Shown one piece after another: positions 3-56,707 of a stretch of 57,548 nucleotides of DNA (positions are counted from its first letter, which is position 1; every line of letters starts with the position of its first letter). The stretch spans positions 1 to 57,548 of the forward strand of contig PNAA01000011.1 of assembly GCA_003169975.1 (NCBI GenBank), in the 5' to 3' direction. Position numbers and translations under genes: made by a program. Under the pieces are notes generated by a model. The model worked only from the letters and a program-made list of their open reading frames with translations, made no database searches and was not told the origin of the DNA. The DNA is from Spartobacteria bacterium. GTDB taxonomy: Bacteria; Verrucomicrobiota; Verrucomicrobiia; Chthoniobacterales; UBA10450.

Positions 3-626
3 CACGATGCGATCGACTCAATTCTCACAGAAGATCCCGGTGCAATTCCCGCCGCGGCCGATACCTGGTTTCTTTGCGCGCTAGCGGAACGCGATGCAAC
101 GGCGGCGAAGCGGGCCTTGGCGGCACTGAACCATACTGCTGCTTTTGGCGAAGGCGGCGTCTATTTGAGCGCCAGCTTTGGCGAAGGTTTGCTGGCGCGG
201 GTTACCAAAGACGAAGCGGCTGCGCGCGCCGCGTTCGACAAGGCCCGCGTCGAGCAGGAGAAAATTTTGGAAGCGCAGCCGGATTCTGGACCTGCTCTTT
301 GCGTGCTTGGTTTAATCGATGCCGTCACGGGACGCAAAGAGTCTGCCTTGCTTGAAGGACGGCATGCGATCGAGCTTCTTCCGGTAGACAAAGACTCCAT
401 CACTGGCAGCCTTATGATCCAGCTCTTCGCGATCACTGCGGCGTGGACAGGCGAGAAGGATCTGGCCGTGCACCAACTGGAACTTGGAGTCCGCACTCCA
501 GCCGCAGGAATTGTGGTTACTTACGGTGGATTAAAGTTGTTGCCTTTTTGGGACCCGCTCCGCGGCGATCCACGCTTTGAAAAGATCGTCGTCTCTCTGG
601 CGCCGAAAACGGGTCCGAAACCGTGA
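3..626 (+). CDS. TPR protein, C-terminal part (5' end outside window)
   Basis: The reading frame is open from base 3, so this is the 3' part of a gene that begins upstream of the window. The visible part is alpha-helical and TPR-like. It ends in a motif (residues F-W-D-P-L-R-G-D-P-R-F) shared with the C-terminus of the next gene (L-F-D-D-L-R-G-D-P-R-F). That ending is usual in TPR proteins linked to serine/threonine kinases or TolB-like domains in Acidobacteria and Verrucomicrobia. The stop overlaps the next start in a GTGA tetranucleotide at 623-626, so the two genes are probably translationally coupled paralogues. The missing N-terminus, possibly a kinase, cyclase or TolB-like domain, cannot be judged from here. 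Confidence 0.75.
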   Translation, partial: HDAIDSILTEDPGAIPAAADTWFLCALAERDATAAKRALAALNHTAAFGEGGVYLSASFGEGLLARVTKDEAAARAAFDKARVEQEKILEAQPDSGPALCVLGLIDAVTGRKESALLEGRHAIELLPVDKDSITGSLMIQLFAITAAWTGEKDLAVHQLELGVRTPAAGIVVTYGGLKLLPFWDPLRGDPRFEKIVVSLAPKTGPKP

Positions 627-2392
627 AGATCGACAACTTCTTCGCTGAGCTGAAGCGGCGCAATGTTTACAAAGTCGCGGTCGCGTATCTCGTCGTTTCC
701 TGGCTGCTCATTCAGGCGGCGTCGATTTTCCTTCCGGCTTTCGATGCGCCGCCGTGGGTGATGAAGGTATTTATCATCGTCATTATCTTCGGCTTTCCGG
801 TGGCGCTGATTTTTTCCTGGGCGTTTGAGATTACGCCGGAAGGAATCAAACTCGAATCCGAGATCGAGCCGACCAAATCGATCGCGCGGCGCACGGGACG
901 AAAGATTGTTGCCGTCACGATCGCGCTGGCTGTCGTGGCGGCCGGTCTGTTCGTGTATCAACTCTTGCGCTCGAACAACGCAGTGGCGCCTCGACAGAGC
1001 GAGGCGGCTACAGTTCCGAACAAATCGATCGCGGTGCTGCCGTTCGACAATCTCAGTCGCGATCCGGACAATGCTTACTTCTGCGAGGGCGTGCAGGATG
1101 AAATTCTCACGCGGCTGGCAAAGGTCGCCGATCTGAAGGTAATTTCGCGGACATCGACGCAACACTTCAAAAGCGCACCGGACAATCTTCCCCAGATCGC
1201 AAAGCAACTTGGCGTAGCGAACATTCTCGAAGGCAGCGTGCAGAAAGCGAGCGATCAGGTGCGGGTGAATGTGCAGTTAATTAATGCGCTGACCGACGCG
1301 CATCTTTGGGCGGACACTTACGATCGCAAACTGACCGACATTTTCGCGGTCGAAAGCGACATCGCGAAAACAATCGCGGAAACGTTGCAAGCACGACTCA
1401 CCGGCTCGGAGAAAAGCTCGATTGCGAAAACGCCGACGGTGAATCCCGAAGCTTACGAGCTTTATCTCAAAGGAAAATTTTTCGCCGAGAAGCGGACCGG
1501 CGCGGACCTGCGTAAATCGATCGAGTATTACGATCAAGCGATCGCAAAGGATCCTGGTTACCCGCTCGCTTATGTCGGCCTGGCTGATTCTCATCTGCTT
1601 CTTACCGCCTACGGCGCTATTTCTACGAAAGAGGCAGCTTCTCCCGCCAGAGCCGCTCTAAAGAAAGCGCTGGCCCTGGATGATTCGCTGGCGCAGGCCC
1701 ACGCATCATCGGGATTGCTTGCTAACCTCGAACTCGACCTCAACCGCGCGATTACCGAATTAGAGCGCGCGATTCAGCTAAATCCGAATTATGCGACGGC
1801 GCACCATTGGATCGCACTTCCGTTGATGGCGATCGGCCAGTCTGATCGCGCGATTGTGGAAGGAAAACGCGCGATCGAGCTCGATCCGCTCTCGTTAATT
1901 TGCAACGCCGATCTCGCTTGGGTCTATTTTAATGCACGCCGCTACGACGAAACGGAGGCGCAGGCTCGCAAGACTTTGGAAATGGACCCGCGTTTTTATG
2001 TGGCGCATTACTATCTCGGGGAAGCCCTTCAGTTTAAGGGGAAACTCACTGACGCGACTGCCGAGTATCAGAAATCCTTCGAATCAAATAACGATCCGTT
2101 CTCGCTCGCCATGCTCGGCCAGGCGTATGCTCGCCAGGGAAAAACCGACGAGGCGCGAAAGGTTCTCGCACGCCTGAGGGAACAGGCAAAATCGCAATAC
2201 GTCTCCCCCTATGCTTTCGCGGTTGTTCTTACTGCGTTAGGCGATAAGGCGCACGCGATCGACGAATTGGAGCATGGCTACGACGACACCGGATTCTACA
2301 TTTCTCTCATCAAAGTAGATCCACTGTTCGACGATCTTCGCGGCGATCCGCGTTTCGACGCGCTCGTGCAAAAGATTACCCGCGGCAAATAA
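623..2392 (+). CDS. Membrane-anchored TolB-like/TPR protein
   Basis: A protein of 589 residues with GTG start inside the GTGA overlap. Residues 1-70 hold a short conserved module with two membrane segments (about 17-38 and 46-68). A third membrane segment lies at about 94-114. Residues 134-255 form the FlgO/TolB-like domain (S-I-A-V-L-P-F-D-N-L-S start, G-V-A-N-I-L-E-G-S-V-Q core) that often sits between adenylate-cyclase or winged-helix domains and TPRs. From about 270 to 560 there are TPR-type helical repeats. No catalytic or DNA-binding domain is visible, so it probably acts as a membrane scaffold or signalling protein. The exact role is unknown. Confidence 0.88.
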   Translation: MKIDNFFAELKRRNVYKVAVAYLVVSWLLIQAASIFLPAFDAPPWVMKVFIIVIIFGFPVALIFSWAFEITPEGIKLESEIEPTKSIARRTGRKIVAVTIALAVVAAGLFVYQLLRSNNAVAPRQSEAATVPNKSIAVLPFDNLSRDPDNAYFCEGVQDEILTRLAKVADLKVISRTSTQHFKSAPDNLPQIAKQLGVANILEGSVQKASDQVRVNVQLINALTDAHLWADTYDRKLTDIFAVESDIAKTIAETLQARLTGSEKSSIAKTPTVNPEAYELYLKGKFFAEKRTGADLRKSIEYYDQAIAKDPGYPLAYVGLADSHLLLTAYGAISTKEAASPARAALKKALALDDSLAQAHASSGLLANLELDLNRAITELERAIQLNPNYATAHHWIALPLMAIGQSDRAIVEGKRAIELDPLSLICNADLAWVYFNARRYDETEAQARKTLEMDPRFYVAHYYLGEALQFKGKLTDATAEYQKSFESNNDPFSLAMLGQAYARQGKTDEARKVLARLREQAKSQYVSPYAFAVVLTALGDKAHAIDELEHGYDDTGFYISLIKVDPLFDDLRGDPRFDALVQKITRGK

Positions 2393-3150: not shown

Positions 3151-6100
3151 ATGGACGCCATTAATTTAATTACCCAGTCGATGATCGACGCCTTTGTGCG
3201 AGCGGAGCCGCGCCGCGCCCAAGAGATCATCCCCGAACTTGTCTATAATCTCATCTGCGCGGCAGACCAGAAACCGACGAACCTAATCTTTCCGTTAGGC
3301 GATAGCGTTGGACAACACGGCCCCGATGGAATTCTGACACCGTCGACCGCTTTCCCGCCCTTTTTCCCCGCCTTCACCAGCTATTGGCAGGTAGGAACCG
3401 ATTTGGATCCTGGCGATAAGGCGACCAGGGATTATAAGGCGCTCACCAAAAACGTTTCGGAGGACACCCGACAGCAGAGCGCGTTCATATTCGTTACCCC
3501 GCTGTCCGGAGTCAGAAATACATGGGTGGAAAAAGCAAAGGACAAGTGGATTAAGAAACGACAAGACCAACAGGCGTGGCTCGAAATACGCGTGATCGAC
3601 GGCACGCAGCTCATCAATTGGATGCAGAAGTTCCCCGGTGTTGACCGCTGGCTGGCGCTTCAGATGGATGAATATCGGCCTGGTCTACGGACAGTGTCTC
3701 AGCATTGGGCAGGCATCGAAAAGATCGGCGACCCGCCGCCCCTAAAGACAAATCTTTTCCTCAAAGGGCGAGACAATGCGGCCTCACAACTGCAATCAAT
3801 TCTCCAAGGAGAAACGTCTTCTTTAGAGCTTCGCATCGAAACGAGAGATCCCGACGATTTTCTGGACTTCGTGTCAGCCGTGTGTGCGTCGATTCCGGCA
3901 GAACAGATAGCCCACCTCGCCGGTCGCTGCATCATCGTGGAAAATGAAGAATGCTGGCGTTGGATAACAACCAGAAAAACGCCTCACGTCTTGATTGTCG
4001 CGCCGAACTTGTCGTTGGGAAACAATTGGCAAAATTTGTTTCCTCTCGCGAAAGAGAATAAGCACACAGTAATCTATGCGGCATTGCCCGGCGGAGTTCC
4101 GAACTGGAACAGCATCCTTCTGCCGGGACCTAGCGCGACAGATATCGAAACGTGCTTGCGCGAAATCGGCTATTCCGAAGAGCGGGCAAGACGGCTGTCT
4201 ACGCGTTGCGGTCAGAGCCTTCAGGAACTGAAGTTGTGGATTCAAAATCTGTCCACTTTTCCCGAGTGGACACAGGGATCTTCGGGAGCCGAACTGCGGC
4301 TAGCCACCGTCATCGGTAGTTGGAGGAGCGATAGTGTAGGAGATCGGGAAGCAATTGAGGCTTTCTTGGGAAAATCTTACGGGGAGTGGATCACGAATCT
4401 GATTCCAGTAGCGGCCCGCGTTGACGCTCCCCTGAAAAACAACGGTGAGGTTTGGGGCTTTACATCCCGTTTTCGCGCTTGGCAGGCATTGGGCAAACAA
4501 ATCACCGACGAAGACCTTGAAAAATTTCAGATGCTCGCGACAACTGTTCTTTCAGAGCGCGATCCACAGTTCGAATTAGAACCCGAGGATCGCATGTTCG
4601 CGCGCATGCGTGGCAAGGTTGGGAAGTATTCGGCAACTCTTCGCGAAGGAATCGCTAACACATTGGCGCTTCTCGGTAGTTACCCCGCAGCTCTCTCGGC
4701 ATGTACTCCGGGAAAACCTGAAGTGATCGCTGTTTTGACGCTGCGCAAAATTCTTGAGAATGCTGACTGGATACAGTGGGCCAGCTTGAATGACGTTTTG
4801 CCATTACTAGCAGAAGCCGCACCTGACGAATTATTGGATGCTTTAGAGTCTGTCTTGAAGCAACCAAGCGAAAGCGTCTTTCCCAGTGTGTTCGCCCAGG
4901 AACGTTCAGCAATCGAAGGCAGAAACTACATGACCGGGTTGTTGTGGGGATTAGAAACGCTTGCGTGGCACGAGGATTACCTGATTCGCGTCGCTGTAAT
5001 CCTAGGACAGCTCGCTGAGATAGATCCCGGCGGAAATTGGACAAATCGTCCGCTAAATTCAATCACGACCATTTTGCTACCGTGGTTTCCTCAAACTTGT
5101 GCTCCCGTATCGAAGCGAAAGTCGGCAGTTGAGGCAGTAATTGAAGAAAGTCCCGAGATAGGAGGGAAGCTCCTCTTAACTCTCCTGCCAAGCGGTCACG
5201 GAATTTCGAGTGGTAGCCGTAAACCAGCCTGGCGAGAGTTCATTCCGTCTGACTATTCGAACAAAGTAACAACAAAGGCATATTGGGATGAGATTGGTGG
5301 CTACGCCGAGCTTGCCGTTCGAACTGCCGCCGCTGACCTTGGCAAACTTAGAAGCCTAATCGAGCGACTTCCTGATCTTCCGGCGCCAGCCCACACTGAG
5401 ATCCTCAAACACCTTTCATCTGAAATAGTTCTTAAGCTTCCCGACTCGGAGCGATCACCCCTGTGGGAGGCCTTGGTATCGCTGGCCTCAAAGCACCGAA
5501 AATTTCCGGACGCCAAATGGGTCATGGAAAACCACAGCATTGAGAGAATCGAAGAAGTGGCACAGTTGCTTCGTCCAAGTTCACCGCATTTCTATCATCG
5601 TCGTCTTTTCGGTGCCAGAGATTTCGAACTTATGGACGCCAGCGCCGATTACGAAGAACAGCGCCGACAACTAGAGGTACGCAGGCAAGAGGCAATCTCC
5701 GAAATTTTTCGCCAATCGAACATTGAAGGAGTCCTTGAGTTTACAAAGACTGTCTCAGCCCCATGGCAAGTGGGGTTGGCGTTCGGCGCGATTGGTCCGC
5801 AGGAAGTCGATGCTGAGTTATTGCCCAAACATCTTGCTATAGAAGATAAAACGATAGCCCAGTTCATGGGTGGTTTCGTCTGGGCCCGGTTTTGGAAGAG
5901 CAAGTGGGAATGGGTTGATCGAGTCATAACGCAAGATTGGAATTTGGATCAAAAAACTTCGTTCCTCTTGTTGCTTCCTTTTGAACGAGAAACTTGGAAA
6001 CGGGTCGATTCATTTCTTGTCGACAGGGCCTCAACATACTGGAAACAAGCAAATGCCAATCCCTATCAGGGCAAGGATGATTTGGGCGAAGCTGTGGAAC

Positions 6101-6960
6101 GGTTGCTCGAACACGATCGACCTCGCGCCGCAATTCAATGTTTGGAAACATTGGTTCTTCAAAAGGGCAGCGTTGCGCCAACTCTTGTTTCTCGCGCCCT
6201 TATAGCAAATTTGAACTCCGAAGAGCCGACAAACGCATTTGATCGACATGCGGTGATCGAATTAATAAAATGGCTTCAAGGCAATGGTGAGACTGATCCG
6301 AAAGATTTGTTTAAAGTGGAGTGGGCCTACTTAGCACTACTCGATCGATTTTCGGGCAGTTCACCAAAACATCTCGAGAAGCAGTTGGCGGAAGATCCAA
6401 GCTTCTTTTGCGAAATTATTCGCACGATTTTCAAATCGAAGAGGGAAGATGTACCCGTGGAAGCGCCGACGGAAGAAAAGAAGCGAATTGCGGAAAACGC
6501 GTATCGCCTCTTGCACCAATGGCAAACGCCTCCTGGAACTACTCAAGGGGCCGAATTCGATGTTTCAGCGTTCAATAAATGGCTTGCCGTTGTTAAGAAA
6601 TCCTCCACTGAGTCAGGTCACTTCGGTATTGCTATGAGCCAAGTCGGGCAAGTTCTTCCGTACGCGCCCCCGGACTCTACGGGTCTATGGATTCAGAAGG
6701 CGGTTGCCGAAGCACTCAACGCTAAAGACGCTGAGGAAATGCGATCTGGTTTTACAACGGAACTGTTCAACATGCGTGGGGTTCATGGCTTCTCGGGTGG
6801 CACAGACGAAACGGAGCTTTCGAAGCAGTACCGCGAAAGAGCAAACGCACTTGACGACGCCAACTTTCATCGATTCGCAACTTCGATTCGAGAGTTGGCT
6901 GTCGGATATGAGCGCGATGCGAAACGAGAAGCCGCGAGAAATCCGTTTGAGGACCTTTGA
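3151..6960 (+). CDS. Large putative defence protein: nuclease-like N-terminus, degenerate NTPase-like middle, helical tail
   Basis: A single-gene ORF of 1269 residues with more A/T-rich codon use than its neighbours. Residues about 30-175 carry D51, D59-G60, W79-Q80-V-G-T-D, K90 and Y95, then an F-V-T-P-L motif and W-L-E-I-R-V-I-D-G-T-Q-L. This order of D, E/Q and K resembles PD-(D/E)xK restriction-type folds, with Q in the usual E position. Residues about 200-400 begin F-L-K-G-R-D, like the start of a STAND-type NTPase, but no G-x4-GK-[ST] Walker A is present. From about 420 to the end the protein is helical and repeat-like (HEAT/TPR type). The build recalls AVAST-like single-protein sensors, but I cannot name a family. 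It stands alone, flanked by REP palindromes and an unrelated small gene. Real gene: very likely; function: inference. Confidence 0.8.
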   Translation: MDAINLITQSMIDAFVRAEPRRAQEIIPELVYNLICAADQKPTNLIFPLGDSVGQHGPDGILTPSTAFPPFFPAFTSYWQVGTDLDPGDKATRDYKALTKNVSEDTRQQSAFIFVTPLSGVRNTWVEKAKDKWIKKRQDQQAWLEIRVIDGTQLINWMQKFPGVDRWLALQMDEYRPGLRTVSQHWAGIEKIGDPPPLKTNLFLKGRDNAASQLQSILQGETSSLELRIETRDPDDFLDFVSAVCASIPAEQIAHLAGRCIIVENEECWRWITTRKTPHVLIVAPNLSLGNNWQNLFPLAKENKHTVIYAALPGGVPNWNSILLPGPSATDIETCLREIGYSEERARRLSTRCGQSLQELKLWIQNLSTFPEWTQGSSGAELRLATVIGSWRSDSVGDREAIEAFLGKSYGEWITNLIPVAARVDAPLKNNGEVWGFTSRFRAWQALGKQITDEDLEKFQMLATTVLSERDPQFELEPEDRMFARMRGKVGKYSATLREGIANTLALLGSYPAALSACTPGKPEVIAVLTLRKILENADWIQWASLNDVLPLLAEAAPDELLDALESVLKQPSESVFPSVFAQERSAIEGRNYMTGLLWGLETLAWHEDYLIRVAVILGQLAEIDPGGNWTNRPLNSITTILLPWFPQTCAPVSKRKSAVEAVIEESPEIGGKLLLTLLPSGHGISSGSRKPAWREFIPSDYSNKVTTKAYWDEIGGYAELAVRTAAADLGKLRSLIERLPDLPAPAHTEILKHLSSEIVLKLPDSERSPLWEALVSLASKHRKFPDAKWVMENHSIERIEEVAQLLRPSSPHFYHRRLFGARDFELMDASADYEEQRRQLEVRRQEAISEIFRQSNIEGVLEFTKTVSAPWQVGLAFGAIGPQEVDAELLPKHLAIEDKTIAQFMGGFVWARFWKSKWEWVDRVITQDWNLDQKTSFLLLLPFERETWKRVDSFLVDRASTYWKQANANPYQGKDDLGEAVERLLEHDRPRAAIQCLETLVLQKGSVAPTLVSRALIANLNSEEPTNAFDRHAVIELIKWLQGNGETDPKDLFKVEWAYLALLDRFSGSSPKHLEKQLAEDPSFFCEIIRTIFKSKREDVPVEAPTEEKKRIAENAYRLLHQWQTPPGTTQGAEFDVSAFNKWLAVVKKSSTESGHFGIAMSQVGQVLPYAPPDSTGLWIQKAVAEALNAKDAEEMRSGFTTELFNMRGVHGFSGGTDETELSKQYRERANALDDANFHRFATSIRELAVGYERDAKREAARNPFEDL

Positions 6961-8388: not shown

Positions 8389-8504
8389 TTGATCGCGACT
8401 TTATCGACGAGCGTCGCCACCCGCAAGTCCCGGCCGCCCGGTTCATCAGTTGCTGGCTTCGCACGGTGAGGCAGCGAAGAATGTTGATGGTTGAGGGTTG
8501 ATAG

Positions 8505-8738
8505 TTGATAATCGAAGCCGTGGATGCAGTTCTGCCATTGGATCGCATGACGGTGGAAGAGAAGCTCAAAGCCATGGAAATGCTTTGGGACGATCTATGT
8601 CGGAACGAGGGGAAAATTCCGGTGGCCGATTGGCAGAAGGAAATGCTCGACGAGCGGCAACGACAGATCGAGGCGGGGGAAGCAAAATTCTCCGATTGGG
8701 AGTCGGCGAAGAAGCGAATCCGCCAGCGGACCTCGTGA
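8505..8738 (+). CDS. Addiction-module antitoxin component
   Basis: A small protein of up to 77 residues. The motif E-K-L-K-A-M-E-M-L-W-D-D-L is typical of the 'putative addiction module component' antitoxin family paired with RelE/ParE toxins. The start is uncertain: TTG at 8505, GTG at 8520 and ATG at 8547 are all in frame; the family usually has about a dozen residues before this motif, so 8505 or 8520 is more likely. The stop overlaps the toxin start as GTGA (8735-8738), typical of toxin-antitoxin pairs. The pair is inserted on the opposite strand between the dehydrogenase and aconitase genes. Confidence 0.75.
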   Translation: MIIEAVDAVLPLDRMTVEEKLKAMEMLWDDLCRNEGKIPVADWQKEMLDERQRQIEAGEAKFSDWESAKKRIRQRTS

Positions 8739-9028
8739 CGATTGAGATTCTGGACAAGGCGGAGGACGACCTTGTCAGTGGATTCTCATTCTATGAGTCG
8801 CGACAAGCTGGCCTCGGCGCTTACTTTCGGGAGAGTTTGAGTTCCGACATCGAATCGCTTCGGATTCATGGGGGAATTCATCGCATCGTCTACCGGAATT
8901 ATCATCGCGCGCTGAGCCGCCGATTCCCCTTTGCGATCTTTTACACGGTTTCTGGCGCGACGGTCTTCATTCACGGAGTCGTTGATTGCCGGCGCAGGCC
9001 AGCGTGGATCAAGGAACGTCTGAAGTAG
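8735..9028 (+). CDS. RelE/ParE-family toxin
   Basis: A protein of 97 residues started at the GTG overlapping the antitoxin stop. It begins V-T-I-E-I-L-D-K-A-E-D-D-L and contains G-G-I-H-R-I-V-Y-R-N-Y-H-R-A-L, R-R-F-P-F-A-I-F-Y-T-V and a final V-V-D-C-R-R-R-P-A-W-I: the order of the ParE/RelE plasmid-stabilisation fold. The reading frame is open far upstream but overlaps the antitoxin gene and is not coding there. It would act on gyrase (ParE-like) or ribosome-bound mRNA (RelE-like); the sequence does not decide which. Confidence 0.8.
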   Translation: MTIEILDKAEDDLVSGFSFYESRQAGLGAYFRESLSSDIESLRIHGGIHRIVYRNYHRALSRRFPFAIFYTVSGATVFIHGVVDCRRRPAWIKERLK

Positions 9029-11135: not shown

Positions 11136-11573
11136 TCATACCTCCCGTAGGACGAGCAGATGTCGCCCCTTTGCCTTGGACACTGCCGCCAGAGCGATGG
11201 CACGGTCAAAAGTAACCAGTCGACCGCCGTTTTCCTGGGCCAGGCCGAGCAGATAGATATCGGTCAGAGTTCGTGGTGTAAGAATCCTCTCCGAATCGAA
11301 GCGGCTGGCATCGCACAGAGAAATGGAATCAGACCAAAAGGTATGTTCCGGAACAGCCACCGCGGACGCGAACCGGCGCGTAATCTCCGTCACCGCCAGA
11401 CGGCCGGGATAGCTTGGCTGGGACATCACGCGAATGCAGCCATTTTGCGTGATGGGGCAAGTCGCCCAGCCGAGCGACCGATTCTTCGCCATCCAGGCGT
11501 GGGCCGCTTTGTGATGCACATGCGCTGCGTCGAAGAGCGCGATCAGCAGGTTGATATCCAGCAACGCAATCAC
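11136..11573 (-). CDS. vapC: VapC-type PIN-domain toxin
   Basis: A protein of 145 residues with a PIN domain. Acidic residues expected for the Mg2+ site are visible at D6 (I-A-L-L-D-I-N), D105 (T-L-T-D-I-Y-L-L) and D123 (L-V-T-F-D-R-A). The motif C-P-I-T-Q-N-G-C-I-R-V at about 39-49 is typical of the VapC subgroup that follows a ribbon-helix-helix antitoxin. The start overlaps the antitoxin stop by 4 bases. Such toxins are RNases acting on tRNA or rRNA. It precedes the aconitase gene on the same strand with about 75 bases between. Confidence 0.87.
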   Translation of the reverse strand: MIALLDINLLIALFDAAHVHHKAAHAWMAKNRSLGWATCPITQNGCIRVMSQPSYPGRLAVTEITRRFASAVAVPEHTFWSDSISLCDASRFDSERILTPRTLTDIYLLGLAQENGGRLVTFDRAIALAAVSKAKGRHLLVLREV

Positions 11574-51864: not shown

Positions 51865-53232
51865 TCAAATGTGCCTAAAAAACGGCCTCGGGGATACAAA
51901 CAGGGGATACAATTTGGCGTTTAGGCCCTTGGGGGAAGGCCCTGCACCCCAAAAGCCTACCGAGGGTTCGAATCCCTCCCTCACCGCCACTCGTCCCAAC
52001 GCGACAGGAAGCGTCAGCATGCGACCATTTGCCTTATTATCAGCGAGTTCCATCGCTTGATTCCCTTCGCTCCTCGCGTCAGCTTGCGACAAATTCTGCC
52101 CTGCCGCGTCTGCAATCTGTGCGCGTATTTGTGTATCGTCGAAAAGGCGCGGTAGTCCCTTGACGGCGTCGTAAATGGGTAGCTGCGACTCATCGGTGTA
52201 AACCTTGGACGTCAATCTAATGTCGCTGTGGCGAAGCAGCTTCATCGCGAAACGCTGCGCTATGCCATGTCTCTGTAGGAACGTAGCCCAAGTGTAACGC
52301 AGCGCGTGGAAATCCGCATATCTCCCCGACCCATCGCAATAAGCAATCCCGTTGCGTTCAGAATCTCGCCGCAATCGCCGAGCCTGCGGTACTCCATTTT
52401 GAAACACCAAGTCCGACGGCGAATAATTGACGGGCCGATGCGCCTTCAACGCCTCGGCTATTTCTGGAACGAGCGGCACATGCTCCTCTTTCTTGTTCTT
52501 CGCACAAATGACACGAACGCGCACATGTGGCACCTTTTCGTCGAATCGAAGATCGTCCCAAATCAGTTGTCGAAGTTCCTCGTGCCGTAATCCAGTGCGC
52601 GCCGCCGCGAGATAAACAATCCCGCGAGGGCCAGAACCAGCGATCAATCCTCGCAATTCCTCATCAGTGAACGCTCGCCGCACTCGCTTTGACTGTCCGC
52701 GCTCGTCAATTTTCGGTACGAATTTCAAGGGATTGCCCTTGATTCGTCCCACCCGTTCCAGCCAGTTCAGGAATGAAACCATTGCTTGCAGATAGTGATT
52801 CAGCGTCCGGGCTGAATTCTTTTGCCCGCTTCTCCATCCAATAAATGAATCCGCGTTGACGTTATAAGCCACATTCCAATTGCATGCCTTGAGCAGCGTG
52901 CAGACCCGCATCTTGAGTTGGCGCCCACCTCTTCCATTGCGCCCCGCACGATTTCGTTTTTCCAAATCTGCGAGGTAGTCCTCCAGATGTGCGGCCAGCG
53001 GCCTCATTGCAGCATTCCGAATCACTTTCGGTTCCAGGATGCCCGCAGCTTCTCGTTCCTTTTCCTGAATGAATTCGCGTGCTCTCTTATCAGCGACCTG
53101 CCTGTCCGTCACGCCAAGGGCTTTCCAGCGGTCCACAGGCATTTCCCCCACCCGATAGCGCACGTAATAACAGCGCGTCAGACGGAGAACTCCATTCTTA
53201 CGGAAACGCCGCTTTTCGACCTTAAAGATCAT
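51865..53232 (-). CDS. Tyrosine recombinase (integrase) reading through its attachment site
   Basis: A protein of 455 residues. N-terminal arm- and core-binding parts to about 185, then the catalytic set R216 (A-R-T-G-L-R-H-E-E-L), K in A-K-N-K-K-E-E at about 244-250, H309/R312 (F-H-A-L-R-Y-T-W), H335 (L-L-R-H-S-D-I) and Y345. The fold ends near 365. The last 45 residues (with A-V-R-E-G-F-E-P-S-V-G-F) are the antisense translation of a tRNA 3' end, so the gene runs through the att core. It overlaps the HTH gene by 11 bases. It marks the edge of a genomic island. Confidence 0.92.
   Translation of the reverse strand: MIFKVEKRRFRKNGVLRLTRCYYVRYRVGEMPVDRWKALGVTDRQVADKRAREFIQEKEREAAGILEPKVIRNAAMRPLAAHLEDYLADLEKRNRAGRNGRGGRQLKMRVCTLLKACNWNVAYNVNADSFIGWRSGQKNSARTLNHYLQAMVSFLNWLERVGRIKGNPLKFVPKIDERGQSKRVRRAFTDEELRGLIAGSGPRGIVYLAAARTGLRHEELRQLIWDDLRFDEKVPHVRVRVICAKNKKEEHVPLVPEIAEALKAHRPVNYSPSDLVFQNGVPQARRLRRDSERNGIAYCDGSGRYADFHALRYTWATFLQRHGIAQRFAMKLLRHSDIRLTSKVYTDESQLPIYDAVKGLPRLFDDTQIRAQIADAAGQNLSQADARSEGNQAMELADNKANGRMLTLPVALGRVAVREGFEPSVGFWGAGPSPKGLNAKLYPLFVSPRPFFRHI
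51961..51989 (+). other. tRNA-Ser-like 3' end fragment (putative att core)
   Basis: The bases include T-stem GAGGG, loop TTCGAAT, CCCTC, acceptor strand CCTCACC, G and CCA. This is the 3' end of a tRNA, most like tRNA-Ser. The matching 5' acceptor GGTGAGG is absent from the preceding 150 bases. A fragment left by site-specific integration. Confidence 0.75.
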
Positions 53233-55097: not shown

Positions 55098-55150
55098 TCC
55101 CTGAAGCCGTTAGGCGCGTGTTTGTCCATTCAATCTCGCTAACACATGAA

Positions 55151-56707
55151 ATGAAATCATCTCTCTTTGCCCTTCGATCTCAGGCTGTTGCCTGCTTCTC
55201 TGCTTCTCGCCTGGTTGTTCTAATAATCTTCACTTTTTTGGCTCTCATTCAGGACGTTCGCGCGGATAGCTCCACTTGGCTCCTAAATCCTACCAACGGC
55301 GATTGGAACACAGGGGCTAACTGGAGCGCGGGCACCGTGCCGGGCGATATCGCGACTTTTGATGCCTCTAATATGACAGGTGTCTCAGTATCTGCATTCG
55401 CTCCGATTAATCAGATCGTATTCGATTCGAATGCGAGTCCATTCACGATCACTGTTCTTCCAAACCAGCTCTTGGAAGTGTTAGGCTTAGGAGTAACCAA
55501 TAGTTCGAACAACTCCCAGAACGTCGTTGTGGCGGTCGATAACACGGGCGAAGCGGGAAACTGTTCTTTCTTTTCAGGGACTGTTAGCGGACAGGTTCTG
55601 TTTACGACCGAGGCATCGATCATACCTGGGGGATTGCCCGGTGCAGTCGACTTTGATCTTAGTTCTAGCTCGGGCGATGCCACTTTCCACAACCTGGGCG
55701 GCGCAGTCGGCGGCGCGGTCGGCGGCCGCGCCGATTTTTTTGAGAGCGCAAGCGCGGGCGGAAGCACCGTCGTCAACGAAGGAGCGAGCGCGGCCGGCGG
55801 TATTGGTGGGGGGACCTCTTTTTCGCAAAGTAGGCCAAGCGCAGGCAATGCCACGCTCATTGCCAACGGTGGAGCGAGCGGCGGCGGAGGTGCATTCTTT
55901 CTCTTCGCGGACGGGTCGCTAGGGGCGACGGCGCGGCTGGAGGTTTTCGGCAACGGCTACATGGACATGAGCAGTCATACCGGGCCCAGCTTCTCGATCG
56001 GCTCGATCGAAGGAGATGGTCAGGTCTATCTCGGTAAGACAGCGTTCATGGTAGGCAGCAACAACCTGAGCACGACCTTTTCTGGTGTGCTACATCCCGG
56101 CAACCCGACTGGCGGGGGCGGCACCGGCTCGTTAACAAAGATCGGCACTGGCACGCTCACTCTGAGCGGAGCCAACCTTTACACCGCCGGCACGACCGTT
56201 AGCGCGGGTACGCTGGTTGTGAGCAATACGACGGGCTCGGCAACCGGTACCGGCGCTGTACAAGTCAACGCAGGCACGCTTGGCGGGAGCGGGATCATCT
56301 CCGGGGTGGTCAACGTTGGCACCGGCAGCGGAACGGGAGCATTCCTCGCCCCGGCACATGGGACCAACAAGCAGGTGACTCTCAGCGTCCAAAGCGGGCT
56401 GACGCTCAGGGCGGACGCGACCTATACCTACACTTTCAAAGCCAAAAAGAACAAGGCCAAGACCGACAAAGTCATCGCCAACGGAGTGACGATCAGCGGG
56501 GCAAGCTTTGCCTTCCAAGGCACCGCGCAAGGCGCATTAAAGCGAGGCCTCGTCTTGACCGCGATCAGCAATACGGCGGCGACGCCTATCGCCGGCACCT
56601 TCGCCAACCTACCCGACGGCGCAATCCTGACGGTCAACGGGAACAACTTCCAAGCCAACTACGAAGGCGGCGATGGGAACGATCTCACGTTGACGGTCGT
56701 GCCGTAG
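55151..56707 (+). CDS. Secreted protein with autotransporter-associated beta-strand repeats
   Basis: A protein of 518 residues from the ATG before K-S-S-L-F-A-L-R-S-Q-A, with a signal peptide ending at V-R-A-D; an ATG-less extension of 11 codons upstream is also open. The mature part is beta-rich (W-N-T-G-A-N-W-S near the start) and has the PATR-type repeat L-T-K-I-G-T-G-T-L-T-L-S-G-A-N-x-Y-T-A-G-T-T-V-S-A-G-T-L near 327-356. It ends G-D-G-N-D-L-T-L-T-V without a transporter barrel, which is typical of verrucomicrobial PATR proteins. It may be a surface fibre or adhesin. Confidence 0.82.
   Translation: MKSSLFALRSQAVACFSASRLVVLIIFTFLALIQDVRADSSTWLLNPTNGDWNTGANWSAGTVPGDIATFDASNMTGVSVSAFAPINQIVFDSNASPFTITVLPNQLLEVLGLGVTNSSNNSQNVVVAVDNTGEAGNCSFFSGTVSGQVLFTTEASIIPGGLPGAVDFDLSSSSGDATFHNLGGAVGGAVGGRADFFESASAGGSTVVNEGASAAGGIGGGTSFSQSRPSAGNATLIANGGASGGGGAFFLFADGSLGATARLEVFGNGYMDMSSHTGPSFSIGSIEGDGQVYLGKTAFMVGSNNLSTTFSGVLHPGNPTGGGGTGSLTKIGTGTLTLSGANLYTAGTTVSAGTLVVSNTTGSATGTGAVQVNAGTLGGSGIISGVVNVGTGSGTGAFLAPAHGTNKQVTLSVQSGLTLRADATYTYTFKAKKNKAKTDKVIANGVTISGASFAFQGTAQGALKRGLVLTAISNTAATPIAGTFANLPDGAILTVNGNNFQANYEGGDGNDLTLTVVP

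Follow-up and report, generated by a model that had tools for sequence, protein, structure and literature searches.

The DNA analysed here is a stretch of 57,548 nucleotides from a Spartobacteria bacterium (NCBI GenBank assembly GCA_003169975.1, contig PNAA01000011.1, positions 1 to 57,548; hereafter the window), in which a forward-strand gene at 3151..6960 encodes a 1269-aa protein with a nuclease-like N-terminus, a degenerate STAND domain and an alpha-solenoid. This gene was horizontally acquired, and our analysis indicates that it probably serves as a single-gene anti-phage or anti-plasmid effector–sensor, related to PD-lambda-4 A but devoid of a P-loop, whose nuclease would be triggered without an ATP switch. 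An ATP/ADP switch is thought to set off STAND immune proteins, whether bacterial Avs or the NLRs of plants and animals. Given a family that is widespread and mobile, demonstrably akin to a protein of proven anti-phage function and yet devoid of this switch, the need for the switch can be tested and, if the proposed reading is true, bacteria may run such an immune alarm without ATP.

The open reading frame (ORF) starts with an ATG at 3151, continues unbroken over 1269 codons to its stop at 6960, and has full-length homologues with 40–46% identity, so that an intact frame of this kind is far beyond chance. With an overall GC content of 0.512, the gene has the lowest third-codon-position GC content (GC3) of the 21 window genes sampled (0.524, versus 0.58–0.82 in the other 20), in agreement with the initial annotation of this DNA, which had described its composition as unlike that of its neighbours. 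The residues on which that annotation relied (D59, Q80, K90 and an FLKGRD element, at residues 203–208) are all present as placed, and the protein sequence indeed contains no Walker A motif. Searches of Pfam, NCBIfam and PDB sequences with the window protein returned no match, and a PDB profile search yielded weak, unrelated matches only. The sole PADLOC match at E<=1 was a partial one to PD-Lambda-4_A (E 3.3e-5), no Avs sequence model being among the matches at that threshold. The PHROGs family phrog_18693, in contrast, matched the window protein over its full length (residues 6–1263, E 3e-146), which makes the protein a member of this phage family; it carries no functional annotation in PHROG, and is now linked to PD-lambda-4. 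The analysis thereby exposes a module-swapping family to which Pfam and NCBIfam are blind and which PADLOC matches weakly and partially.

The relationship to PD-lambda-4 A (PADLOC PDLC03991; Vassallo et al. 2022, PMC9519451) was examined by comparing an alignment of 15 full-length proteins from the window family with a PD-lambda-4 A alignment of eight, comprising a true PD-lambda-4 A protein (1103 bits) from genome G343 and seven plasmid relatives. Family-versus-family comparison with hhalign gave an end-to-end match of 1120 columns (E 1e-19), and the N-domain (E 3.5e-7) and the solenoid (E 1.9e-14, and 3.8e-13 in a separate solenoid-only comparison) also matched when compared alone. The corresponding controls yielded E 0.42 for the reversed whole-length profile, 0.21–0.91 for five column shuffles, 0.25 for reversed single domains, and 0.29 and 0.51 for an unrelated repeat family of the TPR (tetratricopeptide repeat)-PIN type. 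Because these controls were far weaker than the real matches, the homology is not a by-product of helical composition. Judged by these profiles, the window family is homologous to PD-lambda-4 A over the whole length, if remotely, and PD-lambda-4 A, rather than Avs, is its closest known relative in sequence.

Both proteins share a length of ca. 1260–1280 aa, the same domain order, the same D...Q nuclease positions and, behind the nuclease, the FYD-x-x-x-LA-x-W...HP...W element; in the window protein, D59, Q80 and K90 are followed by V-I-D-G..L..W....PGV..W. Identity between the families amounts to 15%, and the eight PD-lambda-4 A-like proteins display DGG[ILV]DV...Q-x-K, a P-loop that does not vary among them (G[LV][SA]G[LV]GKTR) and a VVDNC-like Walker B, whereas this type of P-loop and the VVDNC Walker B are absent from the window protein and from all 15 aligned members. 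All 21 PD systems, including PD-lambda-4, were shown experimentally to lower phage plating (PMC9519451), and PD-lambda-4 appears in a review as a system with a P-loop NTPase (PMC10952713). The PADLOC suffix "_A" implies a PD-lambda-4 partner gene, yet none adjoins the window gene: no same-strand ORF of at least 80 aa lies wholly between 6960 and icd, the B protein itself not having been profile-searched.

Residues 1–185 (3151..3705, + strand) form a PD-(D/E)xK-like domain according to their predicted structure, their conservation and the above N-domain match. The AlphaFold model of residues 1–700 (mean predicted local distance difference test score, pLDDT, of 85) places a helix at 20–37, strands at 44–46, 60–63 and 76–81, a helix at 87–101 and a strand at 110–115, with D59 (3325-3327) beside strand 60–63, Q80 (3388-3390) on strand 76–81 and K90 (3418-3420) on the next helix. 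In the model, both this order and the residue positions fit the alpha-beta-beta-beta-alpha-beta core of PD-(D/E)xK enzymes, which has its D at strand 2 and E/Q on strand 3, but the structure-search matches cover residues 177–445. D59 is invariant in the 15 full-length homologues, and K90 is kept in 14 of them (Thr in L025). In alignment with PD-lambda-4 A, D59 and Q80 coincide with its D and Q, and the column of its Lys corresponds to G82 in the window protein, followed by K90. The lysine of PD-lambda-4 A thus belongs to a Q-x-K on the same strand, while the conserved Lys of the window family is found on the next helix. As the Q80/K90 spacing is not that of D/E-x-K, a catalytic role of K90 would imply that the lysine has shifted onto the following helix. 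The nuclease-like N-terminus put forward in the initial annotation is upheld by the modelled strand and helix order and by its homology to the corresponding PD-lambda-4 A domain (DGGxDV...QxK), while nuclease activity itself is so far a prediction, with Gln in the place of E80. A model lacking a nuclease fold, which that annotation had named as evidence against its reading, is not what was obtained, given this nuclease-like order.

This Gln brings up the alternative that the gene encodes a family defence protein with a dead nuclease (E80Q), which might bind or block its target, scaffold another effector, or simply be a decaying copy. Indeed, the window protein is the only one of the 15 aligned members with Gln at position 80 (the other 14 have Glu); among its relatives, L025 has lost K90, L022 and L043 have no nuclease module, and a stop splits the N-domain of L027 from the rest. 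However, the homologous site is occupied by Gln in 8/8 PD-lambda-4 A-like proteins, as part of their Q-x-K. Since Gln is the PD-lambda-4 A residue and is evidently tolerated in the lineage, E80Q alone need not mean inactivity. Moreover, the 1269-codon frame is intact and D59, K90 and D94 are all kept, and we therefore regard a dead nuclease as unlikely.

Downstream of the nuclease-like domain, residues 187–369 (3709..4257, + strand) are predicted to adopt a STAND/ORC-type AAA fold lacking both Walker A and the Walker B Asp, which bears out the STAND-like domain without Walker A of the initial annotation. The best structure match in VIA was Cdc6/Orc1 (1fnn; Z 10.3, 164 residues aligned, root-mean-square deviation (rmsd) 3.2), further matches including many RFC/ORC chains with Z>9 as well as CED-4 and Dark. 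The ORC/Cdc6 assignment refers to the fold only, and matches that differ by no more than 1 Z count as ties. In the model, this region has an ORC/Cdc6-like alpha/beta core with a helical lid. At the P-loop position of the PD-lambda-4 A relatives, the alignment columns contain TRDPDDFLDF in the window protein (residues 231–240; 3841..3870, + strand) and A-D-S-x-E-E-x-x-A-F-like residues in many other family members, and a GKT or P-loop was found in 0/15 full-length members. The loss of the nucleotide site that had been suspected for the window copy is thus family-wide. In several branches of the family (L002, L021, L030, L038–L043 and L063), alignment to the window protein starts only at residues 364–385, which means that no AAA fold is detectable there.

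The remainder of the protein, residues 371–1269 (4261..6957, + strand), was modelled as an alpha-solenoid of ca. 890 aa (mean pLDDT 88.7), in line with the long helical repeat region noted earlier. Foldseek matched this HEAT/ARM-like solenoid to PDB structures such as CAND1 and karyopherins, and a second structure comparison returned generic solenoid matches only, below Z 8. This region is the part that stays constant across the family, and it is predicted to be the sensor.

An AVAST-like architecture had also been suggested for the protein. With residues 1–700 as a query, the first PDB match of Foldseek was Avs4 bound to the phage portal (8dgf; E 1.5e-5, TM score 0.23, rmsd 19.7), and Avs4 likewise combines a nuclease-type effector, a STAND core and repeats within a single polypeptide. 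Avs4 did not appear, however, among the 50 matches listed in the structure comparison that had paired residues 187–369 with Cdc6/Orc1, and PD-lambda-4 A is nearer in sequence. The window protein furthermore differs from Avs4 in lacking Walker A, whereas AVAST proteins oligomerise by means of a STAND NTPase with Walker A/B, and in having a HEAT/ARM-like solenoid instead of a recognisable Avs TPR sensor. Another parallel is provided by iSTAND and BrxB (PMC8195603, PMC12839542), in which a STAND-shaped domain without NTP motifs also occurs in a predicted defence protein. These are part of multi-gene systems (the MoxR-vWA ternary system and BREX), whereas the window protein unites effector, dead STAND and sensor in one chain, and belongs to a family for which, unlike for iSTAND and BrxB, a sister family with intact P-loop has been identified.

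Comparison of the homologues revealed four kinds of front module on a shared solenoid, namely a window-type domain, which is often but not always preceded by a helix-turn-helix (HTH), an FE...QxK domain, SIR2, and a short peptide. The FE...QxK domain (ca. 280 residues, in L002, L021, L030 and L041) has no Pfam match and is a putative nuclease by its motif only; it is unrelated in sequence to the window N-domain (E 0.63 with hhalign), which points to exchange rather than divergence. The SIR2 module of L031 (E 4.8e-13) was assessed from the SIR2 region alone, as the start of this long GC-rich ORF is uncertain; the true start of L029 is uncertain too. Conversely, L037 bears the window-type N-domain on a divergent body, behind type III restriction-modification (RM) genes.

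This exchange also bears on whether the window protein might instead act directly, in the manner of a restriction enzyme, with foreign or modified DNA recognised by its solenoid or by what remains of the AAA-like part, and not as a detector of a phage protein that triggers cell death. The Cdc6/ORC-like fold of its middle part would suit such a role, retention of nucleic-acid binding has been proposed for inactive STAND domains (PMC8195603), and direct immunity was conferred by 7/11 of those PD systems that contain DNA-binding or cleavage components (PMC9519451). Nevertheless, the replacement of the nuclease by SIR2 and other modules on the same solenoid fits a general trigger better, and the first Foldseek match, Avs4, is a sensor of the phage portal protein. 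A restriction-like mode of action retains a modest chance, a little above that of the dead nuclease.

Since antitoxin-type HTH/HigA-like N-termini occur in L020, L023 and L049, and toxin-antitoxin (TA) genes are found near some homologues, the family could also be thought to serve plasmid or prophage maintenance or regulation in an addiction-like manner, rather than defence. We consider this improbable, as the window protein has no HTH, is a homologue of a confirmed anti-phage protein, and belongs to a family with immunity-type effectors (SIR2 and the QxK domain).

The short-peptide module (GHN-x-x-GD) heads those solenoid members whose gene comes after GapS6a (NCBIfam NF047935 / Pfam HetE-N) of the GAPS6 system. 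Specifically, the peptide-headed members L022 and L093 are located directly behind GapS6a, and a peptide of ca. 22 aa is common to both proteins, which resembles the coupling by effector-associated domains (PMC8195603). The window gene, in contrast, has no GapS6a; its upstream neighbour is an opposite-strand ORF of 169 aa without Pfam family. The E. coli prophage relatives that come after gapS6a had raised the suspicion that the solenoid protein might be GapS6b, an identification that was dropped because the gene following other GapS6a genes encodes a different protein, apparently of the TPR-PIN type, which is not homologous to the solenoid family. GapS6a (HetE-N) can hence be seen with two unrelated partner types (e.g. 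at L093:12980-16098 and L022:7570-10664), each opening with a short peptide common to the GapS6a C-terminus, suggesting a general adaptor pairing.

The horizontal acquisition of the window gene is apparent from its distribution. Among 98 relatives searched, it was present in the window's own genome only and absent from the other 97, including those of its genus and family, and among 384 genomes of the class a match was found in 16, over 15 genera. The better matches of the window protein were from other families of the class and, with 43% identity, from pSBAL17501, a conjugative plasmid of Shewanella baltica. Of 22 plasmid records with a homologue, 11 were conjugative plasmids; viral-contig homologues turned up in three scans, and the E. 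coli members reside in prophages or integrase-flanked islands. In the congener G004, the icd–aconitase block is kept at ca. 83% DNA identity, the similarity ends at the icd end facing the window gene, and the gene itself is missing. The same comparison was uninformative in other congeners, as a clear icd match exists in G004 only and the gene upstream, which encodes a TPR protein, is multi-copy. Although its position between metabolic genes, near icd and aconitase, might suggest a housekeeping protein of the lineage, this possibility is scarcely credible given the absence from the other genomes of genus and family, the synteny break in the congener and the closest relatives in other families and on the Shewanella plasmid. 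Patchiness and residence on conjugative plasmids and in prophages are likewise not the stable housekeeping contexts that the initial annotation had named as evidence against a defence role.

The neighbourhoods of several homologues contain defence genes. L034 is adjoined by Gabija (GajA 5e-231, GajB 2e-199 in PADLOC) and L030 has type I RM on both sides, while other homologues neighbour Abi and SieB, or Abi-family, SIR2, RES/Xre and AbiEii genes, or HTH, ImmA/IrrE and PDDEXK genes. The window gene, predicted from the outset to be a one-gene system, is indeed solitary, with homologues that are mobile and defence-linked. Several observations weigh against a defensive nuclease. The defence neighbours are individual cases, and the genes adjoining the window gene are mostly metabolic. 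The AAA-like part alone is only weakly similar to PD-lambda-4 A (E 0.01 with hhalign). Residues 1–185, whose fold is supported by the order in the predicted model, are recognised by none of the sequence profiles of Pfam or the PDB, and with Gln in the window copy alone and the lysine of D/E-x-K off its canonical place this copy could be nuclease-inactive. Finally, we found no experimentally tested member of the window family in the literature.

Taken as an effector–sensor, the protein could operate as follows. The solenoid would recognise a sign of invasion, and the AAA/STAND-shaped middle, presumably no longer able to bind or hydrolyse nucleotide in the usual way, might act as a hinge, an assembly surface or a nucleic-acid contact. 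Recognition would then alter the conformation or oligomeric state of the protein such that the N-terminal nuclease domains become exposed or paired, and these domains would cut DNA, so that the infection is killed or cleared. The family as a whole might in turn represent a lineage that retained sensor and effector while dismantling its ATP switch, from PD-lambda-4 A with its P-loop, via the window type with an AAA fold and a conserved non-nucleotide motif in place of the P-loop, to forms without detectable AAA, in which one solenoid triggers at least four front modules without a nucleotide switch; this broader reading is a tentative one, which we hold to be somewhat short of probable.

Elsewhere in the window, the only suggestive gene (11136-11573, – strand) encodes a PIN-domain protein (Pfam E 9.4e-7), possibly a VapC-type toxin, and adjoins aconitase. 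An ORF between icd and aconitase (8498-9028, + strand) looks like a ParE/RelE-type toxin by eye and has no Pfam match; as G004 has only ca. 94 bp between these two genes, something was inserted there in the window. The TPR protein encoded at 623-2392 (+ strand) belongs to a large amplified family, its DNA having dozens of similar sites in its own genome and in congeners (44 in G000). Outside the window, a cluster beside the split member L027 (L027:14869-19999), consisting of an SMC-like ATPase gene and small partners, has a Wadjet- or condensin-like look and no PADLOC match at 1e-8, and is not claimed as such. The Rhizobium member, whose plasmid also carries Mu-type transposition genes, is immediately followed by a second very large hypothetical gene (L020:11784-15629; 1281 aa). 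Lastly, a tyrosine recombinase of the window (51865-53232, – strand; Phage_integrase E 5.7e-19, GC3 0.575) is located beside two more genes of lower GC3, including that of a PATR autotransporter-repeat protein (55118-56707), and might thus mark a second mobile element.

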